A stretch of 64,000 bases of DNA from Thioploca ingrica (lineage in GTDB: Bacteria > Pseudomonadota > Gammaproteobacteria > Beggiatoales > Beggiatoaceae): positions 1,984,001 to 2,048,000 of the forward strand of contig AP014633.1 of NCBI GenBank assembly GCA_000828835.1, given 5' to 3'. Shown here piece after piece: positions 25,569 to 40,127 of the stretch (its first letter is position 1; the number at the start of each line of letters is the position of its first letter). The notes beneath the pieces are model-generated. The model was not told the DNA's origin and ran no database searches. It saw only the letters and a program-made list of their open reading frames with translations. Both the position numbers and the translations under genes were made by a program.

Positions 25569-25662
25569 ATTGACGTTATTAACTCTCACATAACGTTTAT
25601 TTATTGTACCTGAAGACTGATTGTTATTAAAAACAATTGGTTCAGCTAAGGAAGAGGTACCT

Positions 25663-28600
25663 ATGTCAAATTACGCTGACGAACATCAACCGACTGCGAT
25701 TTCACGCCGTCGTTTCTTATTTCAAATGGCAGCTACCGGTGCCAGTGCCGCTTGGCTTTCTCACAGTGCCATGGCGGCGACTCAGTTGTTAACCCCGGTA
25801 GCCATCGATAATCCTTTATCTCAATATCCTAACCGCGATTGGGAAAAAGTTTACCGGGATTTATATCATTATGATTCTTCTTTTACTTTCTTATGTGCAC
25901 CGAATGATACGCACAATTGTTTGTTACGAGGATTTGTCAAAAACGGCGTGGTTACCCGTATTGCCCCCACTTATGGTTATCACAAAGCCACTGATTTAGA
26001 GGGGAATGGTGCCAGCCAACGTTGGGATCCCCGCTGTTGTCAAAAAGGGCTATCTTTAGTACGACGCTTTTATGGCGATAGGCGTTGCAAACGTCCGATG
26101 GTACGCAAGGGCTATTTAGAGTGGGCACAAGCGGGCTTTCCTCGTCATCCCGAAACCGGTGCCGCTGATCCCAAATACATGCAGCGTGGACGTGATTCAT
26201 GGGTAGCGGTTTCCTGGGATGAGGCTTTTGATCTCGCCGGTAAGGCTTTAATTAATATTGCCCAAACCTATTCGGGTGAAGAGGGTAAAAAACGCTTACT
26301 CGCTCAAGGTTACGATCCCTTGATGGTAGAGGCAACCCAAGGTGCTGGTACGCAAACTTTAAAATTCCGCGGTGGTATGCCCCCGTTGGGGATGACTCGC
26401 GTGTTTGTGCAGTACCGTTTGGCTAATGCAATCGCGTTATTAGATGACAAGATTCGCGGCAGTGGTGCAGAAAAAGCATTAGGGGCACGTGGTTTTGATA
26501 ATTACAGTTGGCACACCGATTTACCACCGGGTCATCCGATGGTGACGGGTCAACAAACGGTCGACTTTGACCTCTGTAATGCCGAACAAGCTAACCTGCT
26601 GCTCGTTTGGGGAATGAATTGGATTACCACGAAGATGCCCGATTCACACTGGATGACGGAAGCGCGGATGAAGGGCACTAAAGTCGTTGTTATCGCCGTT
26701 GAATACAGTGCCACTATGAATAAAGCCGATGAAGCGATTATTGTTCGTCCCGGGACTACCCCAGCATTGGCATTAGGCATTGTTCAAGTGCTGATCAGTG
26801 AAAAATTGTATGATGATGCTTATGTTAAAGCCAATACCGACCTACCGCTACTGGTTCGTATGGACACCGGCGAAATGCTTCGTGCCAGTGATGTATTCCC
26901 TAATTATCAGTTAGCCACTCTCAGCAATAACACCGTCGTTGTCAAAGTGGGTGATAAAGGTCCACCGGTTCATCAACAACCGGGCATCGTGTTTGACGAA
27001 CAACAACGCCAAAATTGGGGTGATTTCGTCCTCTGGGATGAAGCACAAAATCAACCGGTGGCTGTTAATCGGGATCAAGTGGGTAAATATTTTGCTGCGC
27101 TGAATTTACAACCGCAGTTAACCGGTGAAGTTCAAATATCGCTGGTTTCTGGTCAAACCGTCGCTTGCCGAACCGTTTTCGATGTCACCAAACAACTCAT
27201 TGATGGGAGTTACACGCCAGAACAGGTCGAAAAACTCACTTGGGCACCAGCGGAGGCAGTACGCGGGTTAGCTCGGCAAATCGCTGCGAATATGGATAAG
27301 ACGCTGTTTACTGTCGGGATGGGTCCCAATCAATTTTTCAATAACGATCTGAAAGATCGCGCTATTTTCTTGATCGCGGCGCTGACTCGTAATTTAGGTA
27401 AATTCGGTGGTAATGTCGGTAGCTTTGCCGGTAATTATCGCGCTAGCTTTTTCAATGGATTACCGCAATTTATCGGAGAAAATCCTTTCCAGATCGAATT
27501 GGATGCTAGTAAACCCGCCCAACCGAAAGTGTATTGGAAACCGGAAAGTGTTCATTATTTCAATCACGGTGATACCATTTTACGCATGGGTGATACCGTG
27601 CTCACCGGCAAAACTCATATTCCAACCCCAACTAAAGCCGTGCATGTCAGTAATTCCAATTCACTCATTGGTAACGTAAAAGGTCATTATGATTTTGTGA
27701 TTAATACCTTATCGCGAGTTGAATTTGTGGCGCAAAATGAATGGTGGTGGACTGCCAGTTGCGAATACTCGGATATCGTCTTTGCCGTGGACAGTTGGGC
27801 AGAACTCAAATATCCCGACATGACTATCAGTGTCACTAATCCATTTCTATATACTTTCCCAGCAACACCGCTCAAGCGAATTCATGATACTCGCTCCGAT
27901 GTAGAGGTTGCTGCGGGTATCAGTCGTGCTATTGGTCGGCTCACCGAAGATTCTCGCCATCAGAATTACTGGTACTTCCTAGAACATGGCGGGATGCGTA
28001 CTTACATTCAACGGGTTTTAGATCATTCTAATGCTACTCGTGGTTATCGGATTGAAGATTTAGAGCAAAAAGCGGCGGAAGGTATCCCAGCTATCCTGCA
28101 AACCCGCACTTATCCTAAAGTCGGTGCTTGGGAACAAGGCAATGAAGATAAACCGTGGTACACCAAGACCGGGCGGCTGGAATTTTACCGCGAGGAACCG
28201 GAATTCCGTGATAGCGGCGAAAATATGGTCGTACATCGGGAACCCATCGATTCAACCTTCTATGAACCCAATGTCATCGTTGCACAAGCGCATCCGTTGT
28301 TGCGCCCGAAACGTCCCGAAGATTATGGCGTTTCCTCAGATAATGTCACCGCTGACGTTCGCCAAGGTCGGCATGTTGTCAGAACGGTTGAGGAAGTACT
28401 CAATAGCCAACATCCGTTACGCGCTGAACAATTTAGTTTTATTTTCCATACGCCCAAATACCGTCATGGCGCGCACACCACGGCGGTTGATACCGATATT
28501 GTTGCCATTTGGTTTGGACCGTTTGGTGATATGTTGCGTCGGGACAAGCGAATGCCCTTTGTCACCGAGGCTTATATCGATATCAATCCTCAAGATGCGA

Positions 28601-29154
28601 AAGGCTTAGGCATAGAAGATGGCGATTATGTTTACGTCGATGCCGATCCGCATGATCGTCCATTCAGAAATTGGCAAAACAACCCAGAAGGTTATAAAGT
28701 CGCACGCTTGCTAGTACGAGCACGTTATTATCCTGGCACCCCGCGTGGGGTAACGCGCATGTGGCACAACATGTATTGCGCGACTTTCGGCTCGGTGCGC
28801 GGTCAAGAAACCAATCCCACCGGCTTAGCTAAATCACCGGAAACGAATTATCAATCCATCTTTCGCAGTGGCAGTCATCAAAGCTGTACTCGCGGTTGGC
28901 TCAAACCCACGTGGATGACTGATTCGCTTTATGTCAAAGGACTGTTAGGTCAAAAAATGACGCAGGGGTTTGTGCCTGATGTTCACTGTCCCACCGGTGC
29001 GCCGCGCGAATCCATGGTTAAAATCACCAAAGCGGAAGCCGGTGGCTTGAACGGTGAAGGCTTATGGGCACCGGCACAACAGGGCTTACGTCCCACTTAC
29101 GAAAGCGATGTCCTGAAACGGTTTATCGCCGGTCAATTTATCATGCGCGCCTAA
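25663..29154 (+). CDS. Molybdopterin oxidoreductase alpha subunit, type II DMSO-reductase family (NXR/nitrate reductase-like)
   Basis: The ATG at 25663 follows GGAAGAGG. The 1163-residue precursor has a TAT signal (S14-R15-R16-R17-F, cut near 37-39), so it acts in the periplasm. It binds Mo-bisMGD, and D286 in HTDLPPGHP aligns with the molybdenum-ligand Asp of NarG. The first iron-sulfur site reads C78-x3-D82-x3-C86...C125/C126, with Asp where NarG has a Cys. From memory this occurs in Nitrospira/anammox-type nitrite oxidoreductases. Later, [17 protein letters not shown] is typical of the NXR/NarG/selenate/chlorate group. It heads an alpha-beta-gamma-chaperone operon behind an FNR box. Nitrate reduction is the most likely role; nitrite oxidation or another oxyanion is possible. 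Confidence 0.9.
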
Positions 29155-29168
29155 CAGGAGAATGAATC

Positions 29169-30296
29169 ATGGCTGAACGTCATAATTGGCAATTGGGACG
29201 GGACATGACCTATCCCTATGATGCCCCACTACCGCAAAAGCAAGTTGCTTATGTGTTTGATATTAATAAATGTATTGAATGTCAGACGTGTACTATCGCT
29301 TGTAAAACCTGTTGGACCAGCGGGAAGGGCGAAGAAAGTATGTTTTGGAATAATGTGGAAACCAAGCCCTATGGCGGTTATCCAACCGGTTGGGATTTAA
29401 AATTACTCGAACGCCGCGAACCGGCACAATGGCAAGGCGAAGTACTGAAAACTAAGACCATTTTTGAAGATCACGGGCCGTTGGATTTGCCCACGGGACA
29501 TCTGCCGGGAACGATGGATTATTCCGCAGTTAATCTCGGTGAAGACGATATTACTGGCACGGTGGAACAAGGTGGGCATTTTGCAGGTATCCATCCGATG
29601 TGGATGTTTTACCTAGCGCGAATTTGTAACCATTGTACGCATCCCGCTTGCGTCGCCGCTTGTCCTCGGCAAGCCGTTTATAAACGTGATGAAGACGGTA
29701 TTGTCTTAATTGACCAGCAACGGTGTCGGGGTTATCAAGCCTGTGTAGAAGCTTGTCCGTACAAAAAAACCTTTTTCAATTTGGTGAGTCGCACCAGTGA
29801 AAAATGTATCGGTTGCTATCCCCGAGTTGAACAAGGCGAAGTGGCTTTATGCGTCGAGTCTTGCATTGGTAAAATTCGGATGCATGGCTTTTTAACCACT
29901 CAAAGCGAACCGCGTGAAGATAATCCACTCGATTATATTATTAAAATCCGTCGTTTAGCTTTGCCGTTATATCCACAATTTGGCACCAGTCCTAATGTGT
30001 ACTACATTCCACCCGTTCATGTTCCAGATGGGTTCTTAGAACAACTGTTTGGACCACAAGTTGACCAAGCCAAAACGTTGTATCGTAGCTTGAAAGATGA
30101 CAAACAGCTACTGGGTGCTTTACTCCTGTTTGGTGCAACGAATCGCATCATTGAGAAGTTTAAAGTAGAAGGCAATGAAGTTATTGGCTGGGATGGCAAA
30201 GGTGAAGAGGTCGCACGAGTACCTTTCACGGAGCCAACTCGTATCCGTGATTATTACGATAAACAGTATGATGTGTATCGGCACAATACGACCTAA
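29169..30296 (+). CDS. Iron-sulfur beta subunit of the type II molybdoenzyme (NarH-like)
   Basis: 375 residues, 14 bp after alpha, with a strong AGGAG site. Four Fe-S cysteine groups are visible: C35-x2-C38-x2-C41-x3-C45; CNHCTHPACVAAC; CRGYQACVEAC; and KCIGC...CVESC. In the third, Tyr stands where a fourth Cys would be (NarH has Trp), which predicts a [3Fe-4S] cluster beside three [4Fe-4S]. It carries electrons between the alpha subunit and the haem subunit. It has no signal of its own, so it should be exported with alpha by TAT. Only about 375 residues, it lacks the long C-terminal region of cytoplasmic NarH. Confidence 0.93.
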   Translation: MAERHNWQLGRDMTYPYDAPLPQKQVAYVFDINKCIECQTCTIACKTCWTSGKGEESMFWNNVETKPYGGYPTGWDLKLLERREPAQWQGEVLKTKTIFEDHGPLDLPTGHLPGTMDYSAVNLGEDDITGTVEQGGHFAGIHPMWMFYLARICNHCTHPACVAACPRQAVYKRDEDGIVLIDQQRCRGYQACVEACPYKKTFFNLVSRTSEKCIGCYPRVEQGEVALCVESCIGKIRMHGFLTTQSEPREDNPLDYIIKIRRLALPLYPQFGTSPNVYYIPPVHVPDGFLEQLFGPQVDQAKTLYRSLKDDKQLLGALLLFGATNRIIEKFKVEGNEVIGWDGKGEEVARVPFTEPTRIRDYYDKQYDVYRHNTT

Positions 30297-30306
30297 TTGA
30301 GTGGTA

Positions 30307-30328
30307 TCCCCCTTGAACATAAGGGGGA
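30307..30328. promoter_or_regulatory. Intercistronic hairpin between beta and gamma genes
   Basis: A perfect 8-bp stem TCCCCCTT / AAGGGGGA with loop GAACAT lies 11 bp after the beta stop and about 35 bp before the gamma start. It has no U-run, so it is more likely an RNA-processing or stability element that lowers expression of the later genes than a full terminator. The stem sequence recurs in hairpins at 40100 and 42948. Confidence 0.5.
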
Positions 30329-30362
30329 GAAAATTAGCAGCTATCAAACGGAGAAAATAGTG

Positions 30363-31235
30363 ATGAAAACGATTCAACGCTTAGGCTATCCAATTAGTCT
30401 AATCAGCTTTTTTATCCTCATGACGACTATGGCAACGGCTCAAGAAGCCAGTATTACTGTCAAGCGAATTGAAGCTTTACCGACGAACCCACTAGCCGAA
30501 GAATGGCAGTCAGTACCGGTAACCGAAGTACCCGTGATGCCACAACAAGTCACCATGCCGGCTTTGGCACAAGCTTTTATTGACAAAATCACGGTTCAAG
30601 CACTAACCGATGGCAAAACCATTGCGTGGCGGCTGTCTTGGCAGGATGACGCCGCAGACTCTAACGTCGATGTCGGGCGTTTTTCAGATGCGGTGGCAAT
30701 AGAATTACCACTGAATACCGGTGCTTCGCCAATGATGGGACATCGGGGTGGTGGTAAAGTACAAATTTTGTATTGGAAAGGATTGTGGCAAAAAGATATT
30801 GACGAAGGCTTTCAAGATGTCCAAGATGTTCATCCCAATTATTGGAGTGATCTTTATTGGTTTGCCGATGGTCAATTCCCCTACCGAATTCCCGATGCTT
30901 TCAAGAATCCCTATTCTCAACAATGGTTTATTGCTAAAACTGCCAATAATCCAGTCGCGATTTTTAATCGCCAACAACCGGTGCAAGAGTTAATTGCTGA
31001 AGGTTGGGGTACACTCACCCATCAACCCGAATCAGTCACTCGTGGCAAAGGCGTTTGGGCAGAGGGTAAATGGAACGTGGTTTTTTCCCGCCCACTCACG
31101 ACGACTGATCCTAATGACTACCAGTTTAATGGTGACAAGGGCGAAATGGCTTTCGCCGTTTGGCAGGGCGGTAAGAATAATGTGGGCGGACGCAAACATT
31201 GGTCTAACTGGACACCGTATCAAATACAACCATGA
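30363..31235 (+). CDS. Haem-b gamma subunit, ethylbenzene dehydrogenase-related
   Basis: The start at 30363 is preferred: GGAGA lies 8 nt upstream and the N-terminus becomes a Sec signal peptide (MKTIQRLG...TMATAQ, cut after ~25). The 290-residue product has the EB_dh domain: 'KITVQALTDGKTIAWRLSWQDDA..', FSDAVAIELPL, and GASPMMGH, where the Met is a candidate haem axial ligand by analogy with DdhC/EbdC. These subunits bind one haem b in the periplasm and pass electrons to or from soluble c-type cytochromes. The gene order alpha-beta-gamma-chaperone matches such enzymes. No NarI-like membrane subunit is encoded in the window. Confidence 0.85.
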   Translation: MKTIQRLGYPISLISFFILMTTMATAQEASITVKRIEALPTNPLAEEWQSVPVTEVPVMPQQVTMPALAQAFIDKITVQALTDGKTIAWRLSWQDDAADSNVDVGRFSDAVAIELPLNTGASPMMGHRGGGKVQILYWKGLWQKDIDEGFQDVQDVHPNYWSDLYWFADGQFPYRIPDAFKNPYSQQWFIAKTANNPVAIFNRQQPVQELIAEGWGTLTHQPESVTRGKGVWAEGKWNVVFSRPLTTTDPNDYQFNGDKGEMAFAVWQGGKNNVGGRKHWSNWTPYQIQP

Positions 31236-32005
31236 ATATTCACACGACACTTAAAGCCGAACCTATTAAATGGTACCCCAGCCCACCAATTGGCTTGCCT
31301 ACCCGGGCAGATAAAATTGCTCTCTTAGCACAAGCCGACTGGCTGCTGATGATTGCGCCGCTATTCACTTTACCCTCGGCTGGTTTACGGGATAAAGTCG
31401 CCATCGAAGCGGCTGAATTGCAAGAATTGCTCGAGAAATCAGGTATTCCCAATGCAGAAAAATTAATGACAGCCTTTCAAGCGATTCAGCAACAAATACA
31501 AACGCTTCCGTTGGAGATGTGGTCGGGAGAATACAACCGCTTATTTGAATGCTCAGCACCTTGTCCCATCAATGAAACCGGCTGGGTACGACGCGATAAA
31601 GGTAGTATTTTAGCGGATATCGCTGGTTTTTACCGCGCTTTCGGTTTAGAACTAGCCGCCGCCGCGAGTGAAAAGGTCGATTACCTCGTTGGTGAATTGG
31701 AGTTTGTAGCGATGTTGTTAGTGATGCTCGCCAAAGCCACCGAACAAGACAATGCGACTGAAGTCACGTCGATCACGCATAATGCCTTAAGTTCATTCAG
31801 TTCTGACCATTTGGGTGAATGGTTACCGAGCTTTTGTGAACGATTGAGTCAATTGACAGCTTTGCCGCTCTATCAGCAGTTAGCACAATTGCTTCAGTTG
31901 ACGTGGACTGGGATTGTTGCGGTTAATCAACTCCCGGTCAGTGAGGAGAATGTTCAGGAAGTGCTTGGTGAGAAGGGGACGCCTTATGAGTGTGGTTTGG
32001 CTTGA
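31232..32005 (+). CDS. TorD/DmsD-family assembly chaperone of the molybdoenzyme
   Basis: 257 residues; its ATG overlaps the gamma stop (ATGA), so the two are translationally coupled. All-helical, with the family signature EYNRLFECSAPCPINETGWVR and DIAGFYRAFGLELA, followed by DYLVGELEFVAMLLVMLAKA. Such chaperones hold the TAT-bearing alpha subunit until the cofactor is inserted. It is the last gene of the operon and is followed by a GTTGGGTTA hairpin. A 68-bp piece of its 3' part is copied at 32701-32768. Confidence 0.88.
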   Translation: MNIHTTLKAEPIKWYPSPPIGLPTRADKIALLAQADWLLMIAPLFTLPSAGLRDKVAIEAAELQELLEKSGIPNAEKLMTAFQAIQQQIQTLPLEMWSGEYNRLFECSAPCPINETGWVRRDKGSILADIAGFYRAFGLELAAAASEKVDYLVGELEFVAMLLVMLAKATEQDNATEVTSITHNALSSFSSDHLGEWLPSFCERLSQLTALPLYQQLAQLLQLTWTGIVAVNQLPVSEENVQEVLGEKGTPYECGLA

Positions 32006-35144: not shown

Positions 35145-36680
35145 ATGATAGCGATGAAAAGTAGGATTAAAACGGATTTGCTGAGTTGGTTAGGTTTTAT
35201 TTGCCGTTCCAGCGGCATTTTACTCTGCTGGGTAGGACTCAGTTTCTCTTCAGCACAAGCGGCTACTGACTGTACGCAAGTTACTCAAATTTCTCAAGCG
35301 GAATGTGAAACGTTAGTGGCGTTATATAAAAGTACGAATGGGCCTAATTGGTGGGATAGCCCAAGTAATAACTGGAATATCACTAATGAACCGTGTCAGT
35401 GGCAAGGAGTTTTTTGTGGGGATGGGCATGTTACTCAGATTGATAGAAGATGGCAAAACCTAGTTGGTATTCTTCCAGATTTAAATAAGTTGACTTTTTT
35501 GCAATCTCTCAATTTAACCAATGAACCTTATTCTCATAAGAACTTAACTGGACCACTACCTAACTTAAGTGCTTTAACTAAGTTAACATTTCTTGCATTA
35601 GATAATAACCAATTCATCGGTACCCTCAATATTTTGTTTTTTCCAAGTAGCTTGCAATCACTTAATCTAAACTCAAATCGGTTAGAAGGTTCTATTCCTA
35701 ATTTTAGAGAAAGACTCCCAAACTTAGTATCTATTGATTTAGGTGACTTTAATGGAAGTAATTCAGGAAGTAATTCTTTAACCGGGCCTATTGATGCTTC
35801 GTATTTTCCAATTAGCTTGCAATCACTTGTTCTATCGAATAATCCTCTCAAACAATCCTTACCTAATTTTAGTAGCTTAATCAATTTAACTAAGCTCCAT
35901 TTAAGTCGTACCCAATTAACCGGATCAATTAACCTATCGTTTTTTCCAAGTTCACTACAATCACTTGATTTAAGTAGCAATCAATTAGAAGGGAAAATTC
36001 CGAATTTTAGTAAGCTTAACAACTTAACTGAACTTAGTTTAGGGGGTAATATTTTACTTAGAGGCCCTATTAATGCTTTGTTATTTCCTCAGAGTTTACG
36101 ATATCTAACTCTATCTGGAGTTCCATTAAATCAACCCATTCCCAATTTAAGCAATTTAATTAATTTAAATGACCTTCTTTTAGATGGTACACAGTTAACC
36201 GGAACTATTAATTCAGCATACTTTCCACCGACTTTGAGTTGGCTTAACTTAAATGAAAACCAACTGTCAGGTTCTCTTCCTGATTTTAGTAGACTTATTT
36301 ATCTAGAAAGACTTGAGTTATATAATAATCAACTAACTGGTTCTATCAATGCTGCACATTTTCCAACTAGTTTAGATGATCTTGAATTGAGCAACAACCA
36401 ATTCACTGGTACCATTCCAAATTTGAATAACCTTAGTCATTTGATATATCTTAGTCTATCTGTTAATCAGTTTACTGGCCTTATTCCAATTTTTCCAACT
36501 AGCTTAAATTCTCTTGGCTTATTTAAAAATCACCTTAGTGGCAATATTCCACTTTCTTTGATTAATCTGACTAACTTAAATAATCTTGATATTGGTTACA
36601 ACCACCTCAACACCACCACAACCCCCGAGATCCACGCCTTCCTAGAAGCCCCGGCAACAAAGATCCTGATTGGGCACTAA
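35145..36680 (+). CDS. Leucine-rich-repeat surface protein, N-terminal part (frameshifted)
   Basis: 511 residues. A start at 35154 is equally possible. An N-terminal hydrophobic signal (about 17-41, ending SSAQAA) is followed by the plant-type LRR cap C-x-x-LVALYKSTNGPNWW...PCQWQGVFC. About 14 leucine-rich repeats follow, with 'LSNNQFTGTIPNLNNLSHL' spacing typical of the plant-receptor/LRR_4 class. The frame stops at 36680, but the usual LRR ending (GNKDPDW) continues in another frame after a C-run at 36649-36652. Gene and next frame are thus one protein of about 1640 residues split by a one-base shift. It is likely exported and surface-bound. Confidence 0.85.
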   Translation: MIAMKSRIKTDLLSWLGFICRSSGILLCWVGLSFSSAQAATDCTQVTQISQAECETLVALYKSTNGPNWWDSPSNNWNITNEPCQWQGVFCGDGHVTQIDRRWQNLVGILPDLNKLTFLQSLNLTNEPYSHKNLTGPLPNLSALTKLTFLALDNNQFIGTLNILFFPSSLQSLNLNSNRLEGSIPNFRERLPNLVSIDLGDFNGSNSGSNSLTGPIDASYFPISLQSLVLSNNPLKQSLPNFSSLINLTKLHLSRTQLTGSINLSFFPSSLQSLDLSSNQLEGKIPNFSKLNNLTELSLGGNILLRGPINALLFPQSLRYLTLSGVPLNQPIPNLSNLINLNDLLLDGTQLTGTINSAYFPPTLSWLNLNENQLSGSLPDFSRLIYLERLELYNNQLTGSINAAHFPTSLDDLELSNNQFTGTIPNLNNLSHLIYLSLSVNQFTGLIPIFPTSLNSLGLFKNHLSGNIPLSLINLTNLNNLDIGYNHLNTTTTPEIHAFLEAPATKILIGH

Positions 36681-37081
36681 CCCAAACTTTCTCCCTCCTC
36701 ACTTGCCCACAAGGCGGTAGTTTTAGCATCAAACCGGATCCTCAAAAACTCAACTTTGGTACTGAACTCGTTGGCCAAACCGCCATCCTCAACCTCAGCA
36801 CCCGTGCTCAAGATTGTGGCGATTTCAAACTCAAAGGCATTCAATTTGTTGGCGATTCCAAAAACGAGTTTGCTCTCCAAAGCGATCCCCAACAGAATTG
36901 CTACGATAGCAATGAAAATGGACATCACTACAATGCTTGTCAATTCACCATCGCTTTTAGCCCTCAAAGCGCCGGTGCTAAAACGGATATTTCGCTCCAA
37001 TTTGTATTTGAACCCGCCCTCGATACCACGCCTCTCCCTATTCAAGCCAATGCCGTTGGTTCCGGTGCCCCAGTCATCAAA

Positions 37082-40000
37082 GTGACTCCCACAGAACACG
37101 CTTTTGGCGAAACCAATTTAGGCTCGGCTCTCAATCCCCAAGTGTTCACCTTGACCAATGCCGGCAATATCAGTTTAAAATCACCGACTTTTGAACTGAC
37201 TGGTGCTAATCCGCTGGAATTCACTTTTGCGGGTTGGGGCTGTAACTACAAAAACGTTCTTTTGCCCAACGAACAAGAATCGTGTGAGCTGATGGCGCAA
37301 TTCATTCCTATCACTCCTGGCGACAAACAAGCGGATCTCACTATCCAATCGGCTAACGCGCCGGCGCTCAAAGTGCCGCTAACGGGAACCGCTAAAATCC
37401 CCGAATCCTGTGCCAATGTCACCACCGAATCCGTCAACAGTGGTGATTGGAATGATCCCGCCACTTGGAGTGCTAACGCCATTCCCCGCGAATTTGACAA
37501 TGTCCGTATTAACGCTAATCACACCATTCGCGGTGCCAATTTCGCTACGGTCAATGCGTTATGTATTGCCGATAACGGTGTGTTAGAAAGTCCAGATAAT
37601 CAAGGAACTTCGCTGATTCTGCACGCAACGAGTTACTTAGAAAATAAAGGCATCATTCGCGGTCAAAACGGTGCTGATCAACTCGCTACGGCAACGACTT
37701 GTAATGGTGACTACTGGTCGACCATTGGCACGCCGGATTGTGCTCAACCCGGTGCTAGCTTGATCCTATCCGTGGGACATAACTCAGAAAATTTACTGAA
37801 CAATGAAGGTGTTATCATCGCCGGTCGCGGTGGTAGTGGCCAATTACATCACGCTTATGGTGGCAACGTTAGCTTGTTAGGTAATGTGATCGTTAACCAC
37901 GTCACGGATACCGGTTGCGGCATCATCAAAGCCGGTGACGGCAGTCTCGCGACACCCGCTAGCGCCGCCGAACGTCCTGGCGTACCGGCCAGATGTCTCG
38001 ACTTACTCAACCAACTCACCAACGCGGCTAATGACAGTGATACCGCCGCGCCAGCCAATAATGGTCGTGCTGGCAAAGGTGGTGATTTAACCCTGTGGGC
38101 CGATTCCGGTTTATACAGCCAGGGGCCGGTACAAGTTCTCGCCGGCAACGGTGGCAATTGTACCGCAGCTCAAACGCAAGGCGGCAATGGCGGTCGCTTG
38201 CGCTTCAATGCTCGCCAACGAGTCGATCTCAGCGGCGGCTATTTTGCAGCGGGACGCGGGAGCACCAACTGCCCACAAAATGGTAATTCCGGTGCGGTTG
38301 GTATCGAACCCAGCGTGATTTCACTGGCTGGCGCGGGTACCCGAATTGAAGGCGGCGATATCACCATTTTTGGCGGTGACGATTGGGTACTCGACTTGAG
38401 TCATTTAGACGCCGCTGCAATTCAAGCCGATGGCGACATCACCCTAGCCGTGGGCAAAAACGGTATCATTGATTTGCGCGGTAATTCTGCCACTATCCTA
38501 AAAGCCGGTGGTCAAGTTAAGCTGTTTTCTGATGAAGTGTTGTTAGATGGTAATGTCAATCTCAAACAAGTGATCCAGGCTAAAAATATCGTGGTGGGTC
38601 CCAATAAAATTCTCTACGACGTGTCCTTCCTTGGAGCAAGTAAATTCGCTGCACAACCGGGAAGCGGGTTAACCATTCCGCTCACCTTGGCTAACAATGG
38701 CCCAACGGTGGATACCTACACGCTCACCCTGACCAATCCTCAAGGATGGATGATCAGTGAATTCCCTGCAACACTGGAAGTCAAAGAATTAAGTACTTAT
38801 GAATTACCGCTGCAAGTGACCTTACCGGAAACACGTGGCGCGAGTAATTCCATCACCGTTACCGCTACTTCGCAAGCTGATCCCACGGTTACCGCGACGG
38901 CGAATATTCTGGTGACGGTAGCGATGGAAGCGGCTGTCGTTAATCCAGAACCGGAACCGGTGATGATTGATCCAGAACAACCCGTAACGGTTAACCCAGA
39001 ATTGGTGACTTTATCCCCAACTGTCATCGTTCCCATGCCCACCAGCAACCCGTGTCCGGACAGCGGCACTATCAACTGGCTGTGTGACAACCGTGAACGC
39101 ACGCTCACCAACGCCACCGTTGCCGAAAATGCCAGTATCGCTGGGGGTTACCTCGCGGGTGAAATTGACAATCAAGGGTTAATTTCTCAAGTCACCATTC
39201 AACCCGAAACCACGCTCACCGGCGGACGTTTGACCGGCACGATTATTAATCAAGGCACTTTGGCCAACTTCAATTTCGTTGGTGCACGCGTGGTTGGTGG
39301 CACGTTAGCCGGTCAGATTATCAACACCAGCCAAATTGAAGGCTATTTTCAAGATGTTCACTTAGCCGCTGATACCCAGATCACCGGCGGCCAACTCGCT
39401 GGTCAAATCAGCGGCGAGGTACAAACGCCTGCGGTACTCAAACAATTAGCCATTAAGCCCGGCAGTCATTTGGAACACTTGATTATTGGCGATGCAGTGA
39501 CCTTTGCCGCCGACGTGACTTTCGGGGAAGGGGTGCAATTTCAAGATCCGAGTCAAGATCCGCGCTTGATTTCGTCACCGACAGAAGAACCAACCCCACC
39601 GGCAACGGTTATTTGTGACTCTGAATTGCCCGCACTCGGAGTGACGGCGACGAATTCCAAAGGCAAAGCCGTTGAAACGACTGCGCAAGCCGCTGGCGGT
39701 GCGGCCGTTAATAGCGGTTCATTTGAGCCAACGGTTTCCGTTCAGTTAACCGATACCGTGGAAGTCCGTGGCACGCTCTGCGTGGAGGCATCACAAGTGG
39801 GACTGGCGGCAGAAATCGTGGTGTACGCCCATTATCAGCCGATGGATTCAACGCAAGTTTCCGCTCATTACATGTTGGATAGTGAGGGTCAAGTACAACT
39901 GTGGGATGGGGAATGGGAGCATTTAGTCGCGCTGAAGTCAACGATTCTGGAATCGAAGCAGTCAGTCACGTTGTATCAGGGCGTTTTTCCGGTCACCGGC

Positions 40001-40087
40001 GAAGTGGCGTTATCGTTTGGTTATCGGTTAGCTGATGGAACGATGATCGCTAATGCGAAGACGATTGTGGTGAAGATTGCACCTTAA
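37082..40087 (+). CDS. C-terminal part of the giant LRR surface protein (frameshifted)
   Basis: The frame is open from 36653, without ATG/GTG/TTG before the GTG at 37082, which shows it is the continuation of the LRR gene. Read from 36653 it includes GNKDPDWA, then two choice-of-anchor/ASH-like units ('INFGTELVGQ'-type and FGETNLGSALNPQVFTL), a CxxVTTESVNSGDWNDPATW stretch, and a long Gly/Asn-rich beta-helix (about 150-480 of 1001). A NEW3-like domain (QPGSGLTIPLTLANNGP...) and a cysteine-poor C-terminus ending in beta strands follow. Surface display or adhesion is likely. It is followed by a strong hairpin terminator. Confidence 0.75.
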   Translation: MTPTEHAFGETNLGSALNPQVFTLTNAGNISLKSPTFELTGANPLEFTFAGWGCNYKNVLLPNEQESCELMAQFIPITPGDKQADLTIQSANAPALKVPLTGTAKIPESCANVTTESVNSGDWNDPATWSANAIPREFDNVRINANHTIRGANFATVNALCIADNGVLESPDNQGTSLILHATSYLENKGIIRGQNGADQLATATTCNGDYWSTIGTPDCAQPGASLILSVGHNSENLLNNEGVIIAGRGGSGQLHHAYGGNVSLLGNVIVNHVTDTGCGIIKAGDGSLATPASAAERPGVPARCLDLLNQLTNAANDSDTAAPANNGRAGKGGDLTLWADSGLYSQGPVQVLAGNGGNCTAAQTQGGNGGRLRFNARQRVDLSGGYFAAGRGSTNCPQNGNSGAVGIEPSVISLAGAGTRIEGGDITIFGGDDWVLDLSHLDAAAIQADGDITLAVGKNGIIDLRGNSATILKAGGQVKLFSDEVLLDGNVNLKQVIQAKNIVVGPNKILYDVSFLGASKFAAQPGSGLTIPLTLANNGPTVDTYTLTLTNPQGWMISEFPATLEVKELSTYELPLQVTLPETRGASNSITVTATSQADPTVTATANILVTVAMEAAVVNPEPEPVMIDPEQPVTVNPELVTLSPTVIVPMPTSNPCPDSGTINWLCDNRERTLTNATVAENASIAGGYLAGEIDNQGLISQVTIQPETTLTGGRLTGTIINQGTLANFNFVGARVVGGTLAGQIINTSQIEGYFQDVHLAADTQITGGQLAGQISGEVQTPAVLKQLAIKPGSHLEHLIIGDAVTFAADVTFGEGVQFQDPSQDPRLISSPTEEPTPPATVICDSELPALGVTATNSKGKAVETTAQAAGGAAVNSGSFEPTVSVQLTDTVEVRGTLCVEASQVGLAAEIVVYAHYQPMDSTQVSAHYMLDSEGQVQLWDGEWEHLVALKSTILESKQSVTLYQGVFPVTGEVALSFGYRLADGTMIANAKTIVVKIAP

Positions 40088-40099
40088 AATCCCCCCTCA

Positions 40100-40127
40100 C
40101 CCCCTTTTTCAAAGGGGGGAATTTTTA
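40100..40127 (+). terminator. Rho-independent terminator after the LRR surface protein
   Basis: The stem CCCCCTTT-TTC-AAAGGGGG(G) (40100-40119) is followed by AATTTTT. It lies 13 bp after the stop at 40087. A similar CCCCCTT hairpin family recurs at 30307 and 42948. Confidence 0.8.

Follow-up and report, generated by a model that had tools for sequence, protein, structure and literature searches.

A single frame change divides a gene for a large predicted secreted leucine-rich repeat protein in Thioploca ingrica

RESULTS

Two predicted open reading frames in the genome of T. ingrica are, as alignment with intact relatives demonstrates, the two halves of one gene, and that gene carries one break only (Table 1). 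By its predicted domains and linker, the gene belongs to a multi-copy Beggiatoaceae family whose members are large secreted leucine-rich repeat (LRR) and choice-of-anchor D proteins. We favor, on balance, a recent and real one-base frameshift in the sequenced population as the cause of the break, with an error in the sequence as a close rival. A gene split by a single frame change is in itself an ordinary finding. The window, by which we mean the whole 64,000-nucleotide stretch analyzed, covers positions 1984001-2048000 of a genome that consists of a single contig (4,810,005 bases; G+C content 41.1% in a 464-kb sample).

Table 1. Features of the split gene, in window coordinates.
Feature	Position	Strand	Evidence or remark
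Upstream half: signal peptide and leucine-rich repeats, 511-residue frame with an out-of-frame tail	35145..36680	+	Pfam LRR_4 (4.9e-25) and LRR_8; matches the intact paralogue over its residues 1-574; signal peptide recognized by eye
Third-position G+C rises sharply from 25% to 50%, some 50 nt ahead of the frame change	36597	+	
Frame-change site in GCCCC, net one base short relative to intact relatives	36648..36652	+	Codon scores, alignments
Downstream half, 1145 residues, lacking its own start codon before 37082: linker, choice-of-anchor D, G8-like stretch, and a C-terminal domain common to many proteins of the genome	36650..40087	+	NF012200, 60.9 bits (NCBIfam cut-off 45)
ORF called mechanically from GTG, the earliest start codon in the downstream frame; unlikely to be its own gene	37082..40087	+	No Shine-Dalgarno sequence or signal peptide seen
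Terminator-like hairpin and T tail, just 3' of the downstream half	40100..40119	+	11 such sites in the region versus 6 expected, so weak alone

The LRR frame opens at an ATG and closes at a stop codon at 36678-36680, its end reading FLEAPATKILIGH before the stop. CCCC occupies 36649-36652, and the GGC that begins GNKDPDW follows at 36653. In the downstream frame, the last stop lies at 36587-36589, and the frame is then open from 36590 to 40084 (1165 codons) until the stop at 40085-40087; such an open stretch has a probability of about 3e-23 in random sequence of the same composition. Reading this frame from 36590 to 37082 revealed no ATG, GTG, or TTG before the GTG at 37082. With training on 464 kb of the same genome, codon-usage scores prefer the LRR frame until about position 36619; from about 36665, they prefer the downstream frame. 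Both frames are thus protein coding, and the change between them is confined to a narrow interval of about 45 nt. The initial annotation had located the LRR frame (35145-36680), the C run, the GNKDPDW motif, and the startless stretch ending at 37082, all correctly. The terminator-like hairpin, although weak on its own, fits one transcription unit for both halves.

The linker FLEAPGNKDPDW is found in one frame in four uninterrupted relatives, two of which are in the same genome (1708 and 2042 codons) and two in a congeneric genome (2019 and 1964 codons). Of these, the copy at G000:C1:4236189-4241291 (locus L060), with 1708 uninterrupted codons in this genome, is the closest. The LRR frame pairs from residue 4 to residue 502 with residues 1-574 of this copy, and the 1145 downstream residues pair with residues 575-1700. 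This paralogue has the same domain order over its full length, and is 63% identical after the linker and about 58% identical before it; it differs in being one open frame, in an additional stretch with Cys ahead of the linker, and in a smaller third-position G+C step. All other gaps against it, in either half, are of whole codons, which leaves a single break at about 36648-36652. The proposal that a one-base shift had divided a single protein of about 1640 residues is therefore upheld, with 502 + 1145 residues aligning end to end with the intact 1708-codon relative. Looking for both frames in relatives, as had been advised, confirmed that the uninterrupted ones carry the linker and both parts in one frame. 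The GNKDPDW motif had been taken as the usual ending of the LRR protein; in relatives, it is actually a linker to the next domain.

A search for the linker among 41 genomes of the family recovered further copies in other genera, and none of the copies found in these genomes is split at the linker site. At the break site, relatives read GCA-CCC, GCT-CCC, or GCA-CCT, with no C run beyond three, and the window DNA is net one base short beside the Ala codon that precedes CCC (three alignment rows used, with two wrongly oriented rows set aside). We found no positional orthologue: A CcsA-like neighbor in the same-genus genome sits among other genes, with no adjoining LRR gene. A genome-wide scan of the named genomes with the downstream half gave no match.

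The family assignment draws on the LRR half, the linker of this type, and the homology of the downstream half to an uninterrupted relative. NCBIfam scores for a fibronectin-binding, internalin-like, or SspH2 identity of the LRR half fell far under the model cut-offs and reflect nothing more than the LRRs in common. The downstream half resembles choice-of-anchor D proteins in exceeding the cut-off of that model, but differs in that no sorting signal or anchor was identified in the window gene. The description of a "surface" protein draws on a readable signal peptide and the choice-of-anchor D domain; no anchor was found. The G8-like stretch is sub-threshold. As a whole, the downstream half has 80 matching stretches in its own genome. 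Three further genomes from the family (L168, L170, and L171) have LRR-only open frames that are about 500 residues long. The last ~150 residues (39616-40084) recur at about 20 other loci, in large proteins of the same genome and of relatives, and had no Pfam match; they are possibly a sorting or surface-attachment domain.

The two third-position G+C values on either side of 36597 correspond to the 2nd and 97th percentiles of the genome's genes. The log-likelihood gain for this step is 47, versus at most 11 in four relatives. Despite the step, the LRR block and the remainder share their closest relative in the same genome. Such a pattern points to a mosaic gene, or to an LRR block whose history differs greatly from that of the remainder. 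Elsewhere in the window (25621-32005), a four-gene operon resembles a DMSO-reductase-family enzyme, with a molybdopterin subunit, an Fe-S subunit, an ethylbenzene-dehydrogenase-like heme subunit, and a NarJ-like chaperone.

The background of frame changes was sampled in 864 kb of the genome, taken as stretches with 622 predicted genes. Several sites from a first scan proved, on reading, to be ordinary overlapping genes. In a second scan, which permits gene overlaps, only in the window gene was a frame change flanked on each side by over 1 kb of coding signal, and the four weaker candidates all lay in short predictions. Permitting overlaps also absorbs one probable isolated frame change that the first scan had flagged (L072:14754; G000:C1 about 594754), in a gene that, read by eye, may encode a restriction-modification enzyme. 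Isolated frameshifts are thus rare in these 864 kb, and the assembly is not riddled with indels, which excludes a high error rate.

Other copies of the family in this genome are damaged. The copy at 4.42 Mb (L064; G000:C1:4417500-4424500) is decayed: It has an LRR stub, a large part of it is deleted, and its frame changes twice, the second time at a G4 run. The copy at 3.02 Mb (L068; 3019500-3026000) is a 5'-truncated duplicate of that at 4.80 Mb (L067; 4804000-4810005). This partial duplication spans 3.5 kb at 99% DNA identity, with 1143 residues 100% identical in protein, and is recent. A further copy, at 4.256 Mb, is missing its 3' end.

DISCUSSION

Under our preferred reading, a single one-base frameshift would have arisen at the LRR-to-anchor linker of one gene. 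Ribosomes would then stop at 36680, and the cell would secrete a 511-residue LRR protein, missing the C-terminal 1145 residues. With no start signal of its own, the downstream part would not be produced, and the gene would accordingly be either a truncated allele or a pseudogene of recent origin. Its short LRR product might still bind something; LRR-only frames of similar size in relatives make such a product plausible. The decay of sister genes, together with the rarity of isolated frameshifts, tilts the balance slightly toward a real mutation.

We saw no relaxation of constraint in the downstream half, which has evolved no faster than the intact copy. Relative-rate counts of unique changes, given as downstream half to intact copy, were 85:102, 86:80, and 82:100 with three outgroups. 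Compared with the intact copy, the LRR half has a dN/dS ratio of about 0.3 (NG86), and dS in the downstream half is near saturation. The break is therefore either very young or not real. Like known frameshift pseudogenes and frameshifted coding sequences, the gene has a single indel, conserved frames on both sides, and intact paralogues, and its frame is broken relative to intact homologues. It differs in having no second lesion, so that a real change and an artifact are indistinguishable from sequence. Neither relaxed constraint nor further lesions would be required of a very young pseudogene; with no further lesions and no acceleration, we file it as a frameshift pseudogene provisionally.

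A sequence error is a serious but somewhat less probable explanation, under which the gene is intact in cells and encodes one protein of about 1650 residues. The indel is alone and beside a short homopolymer, about 1640 codons are otherwise undamaged with constraint kept, and every detected relative reads through at the break site. The T. ingrica genome was also reportedly derived from uncultured filaments. A literature search for a paper linking T. ingrica with pyrosequencing gave only an unrelated one. Against an error stand the scarcity of isolated frameshifts in the sampled assembly, an expectation of only about 0.03 errors in a gene of such length even if every candidate is counted as an error, and the shortness of C4 as a run for a miscall.

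We consider it very improbable that slipped-strand mispairing in the C run toggles long and short forms of the protein. The run does lie in a gene of a multi-copy secreted-protein family, and an indel in a C or G run of a secreted-protein gene recalls the homopolymer-tract phase-variable genes of Neisseria and Campylobacter. Unlike those, however, the run in the window is only four long and is not conserved at the break site in relatives. Runs of this exact length are common, with 583 C4 and 556 G4 runs (1139 together) in 464 kb, where the longest C or G run is 8. Published Neisseria screens used poly-G/C tracts of at least 9 (PMC5953494). In N. meningitidis, tracts of at least 8 were predominantly variable, and one C5/C6 polymorphism was noted too (PMC5084427). 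Phase-variable genes would thus be expected to have a tract of about 8 to 9 or more G/C that is kept in relatives, and the window gene has neither. Furthermore, given the GCT-CCC, GCA-CCC, and GCA-CCT of relatives, loss of the third base of the Ala codon would itself create GCCCC, so the C run may be a consequence of base loss and not its cause. Of the three causes offered in the initial annotation, assembly error and a real frameshift are both possible, whereas phase variation is unsupported, because C4 is common, relatives have no C run, and published tracts are longer. There is a similarly slim chance that the linker varies naturally within the population, with individual cells secreting an LRR-only or a full-length protein, and that frequent indels, even in so short a run, or recoding bring this about.

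Programmed ribosomal frameshifting that fuses both frames in translation is less probable still. Both frames are well preserved, as it would predict, but the zero-frame reading GAA GCC CCG GCA contains no X XXY YYZ slippery heptamer, the 87 nt of downstream RNA fold no better than shuffles (z 0.04), and relatives are unsplit at the break site. Neither component of a programmed −1 site, a slippery heptamer in phase or a stimulatory structure, is therefore present. Least credible of all is a pair of genes, one encoding a short LRR protein and the other a protein that starts at GTG 37082: LRR-only proteins do occur in relatives and this GTG is close to the start of the choice-of-anchor D domain, but coding signal and homology reach 430 nt upstream of it, it has neither a Shine-Dalgarno sequence nor a signal peptide, and relatives have a single frame across both parts. 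The downstream part, which would begin inside a domain region, is thus unlikely to be made as a protein.

For annotation, our findings mean that the two predicted ORFs should be treated as one interrupted gene and that 37082-40087 should not be annotated as an independent protein. More broadly, a large secreted-protein family in a filamentous sulfur bacterium shows turnover by duplication, truncation, and decay. If the short form were real and tolerated, this would imply that the LRR part is able to function in the absence of the C-terminal domains.
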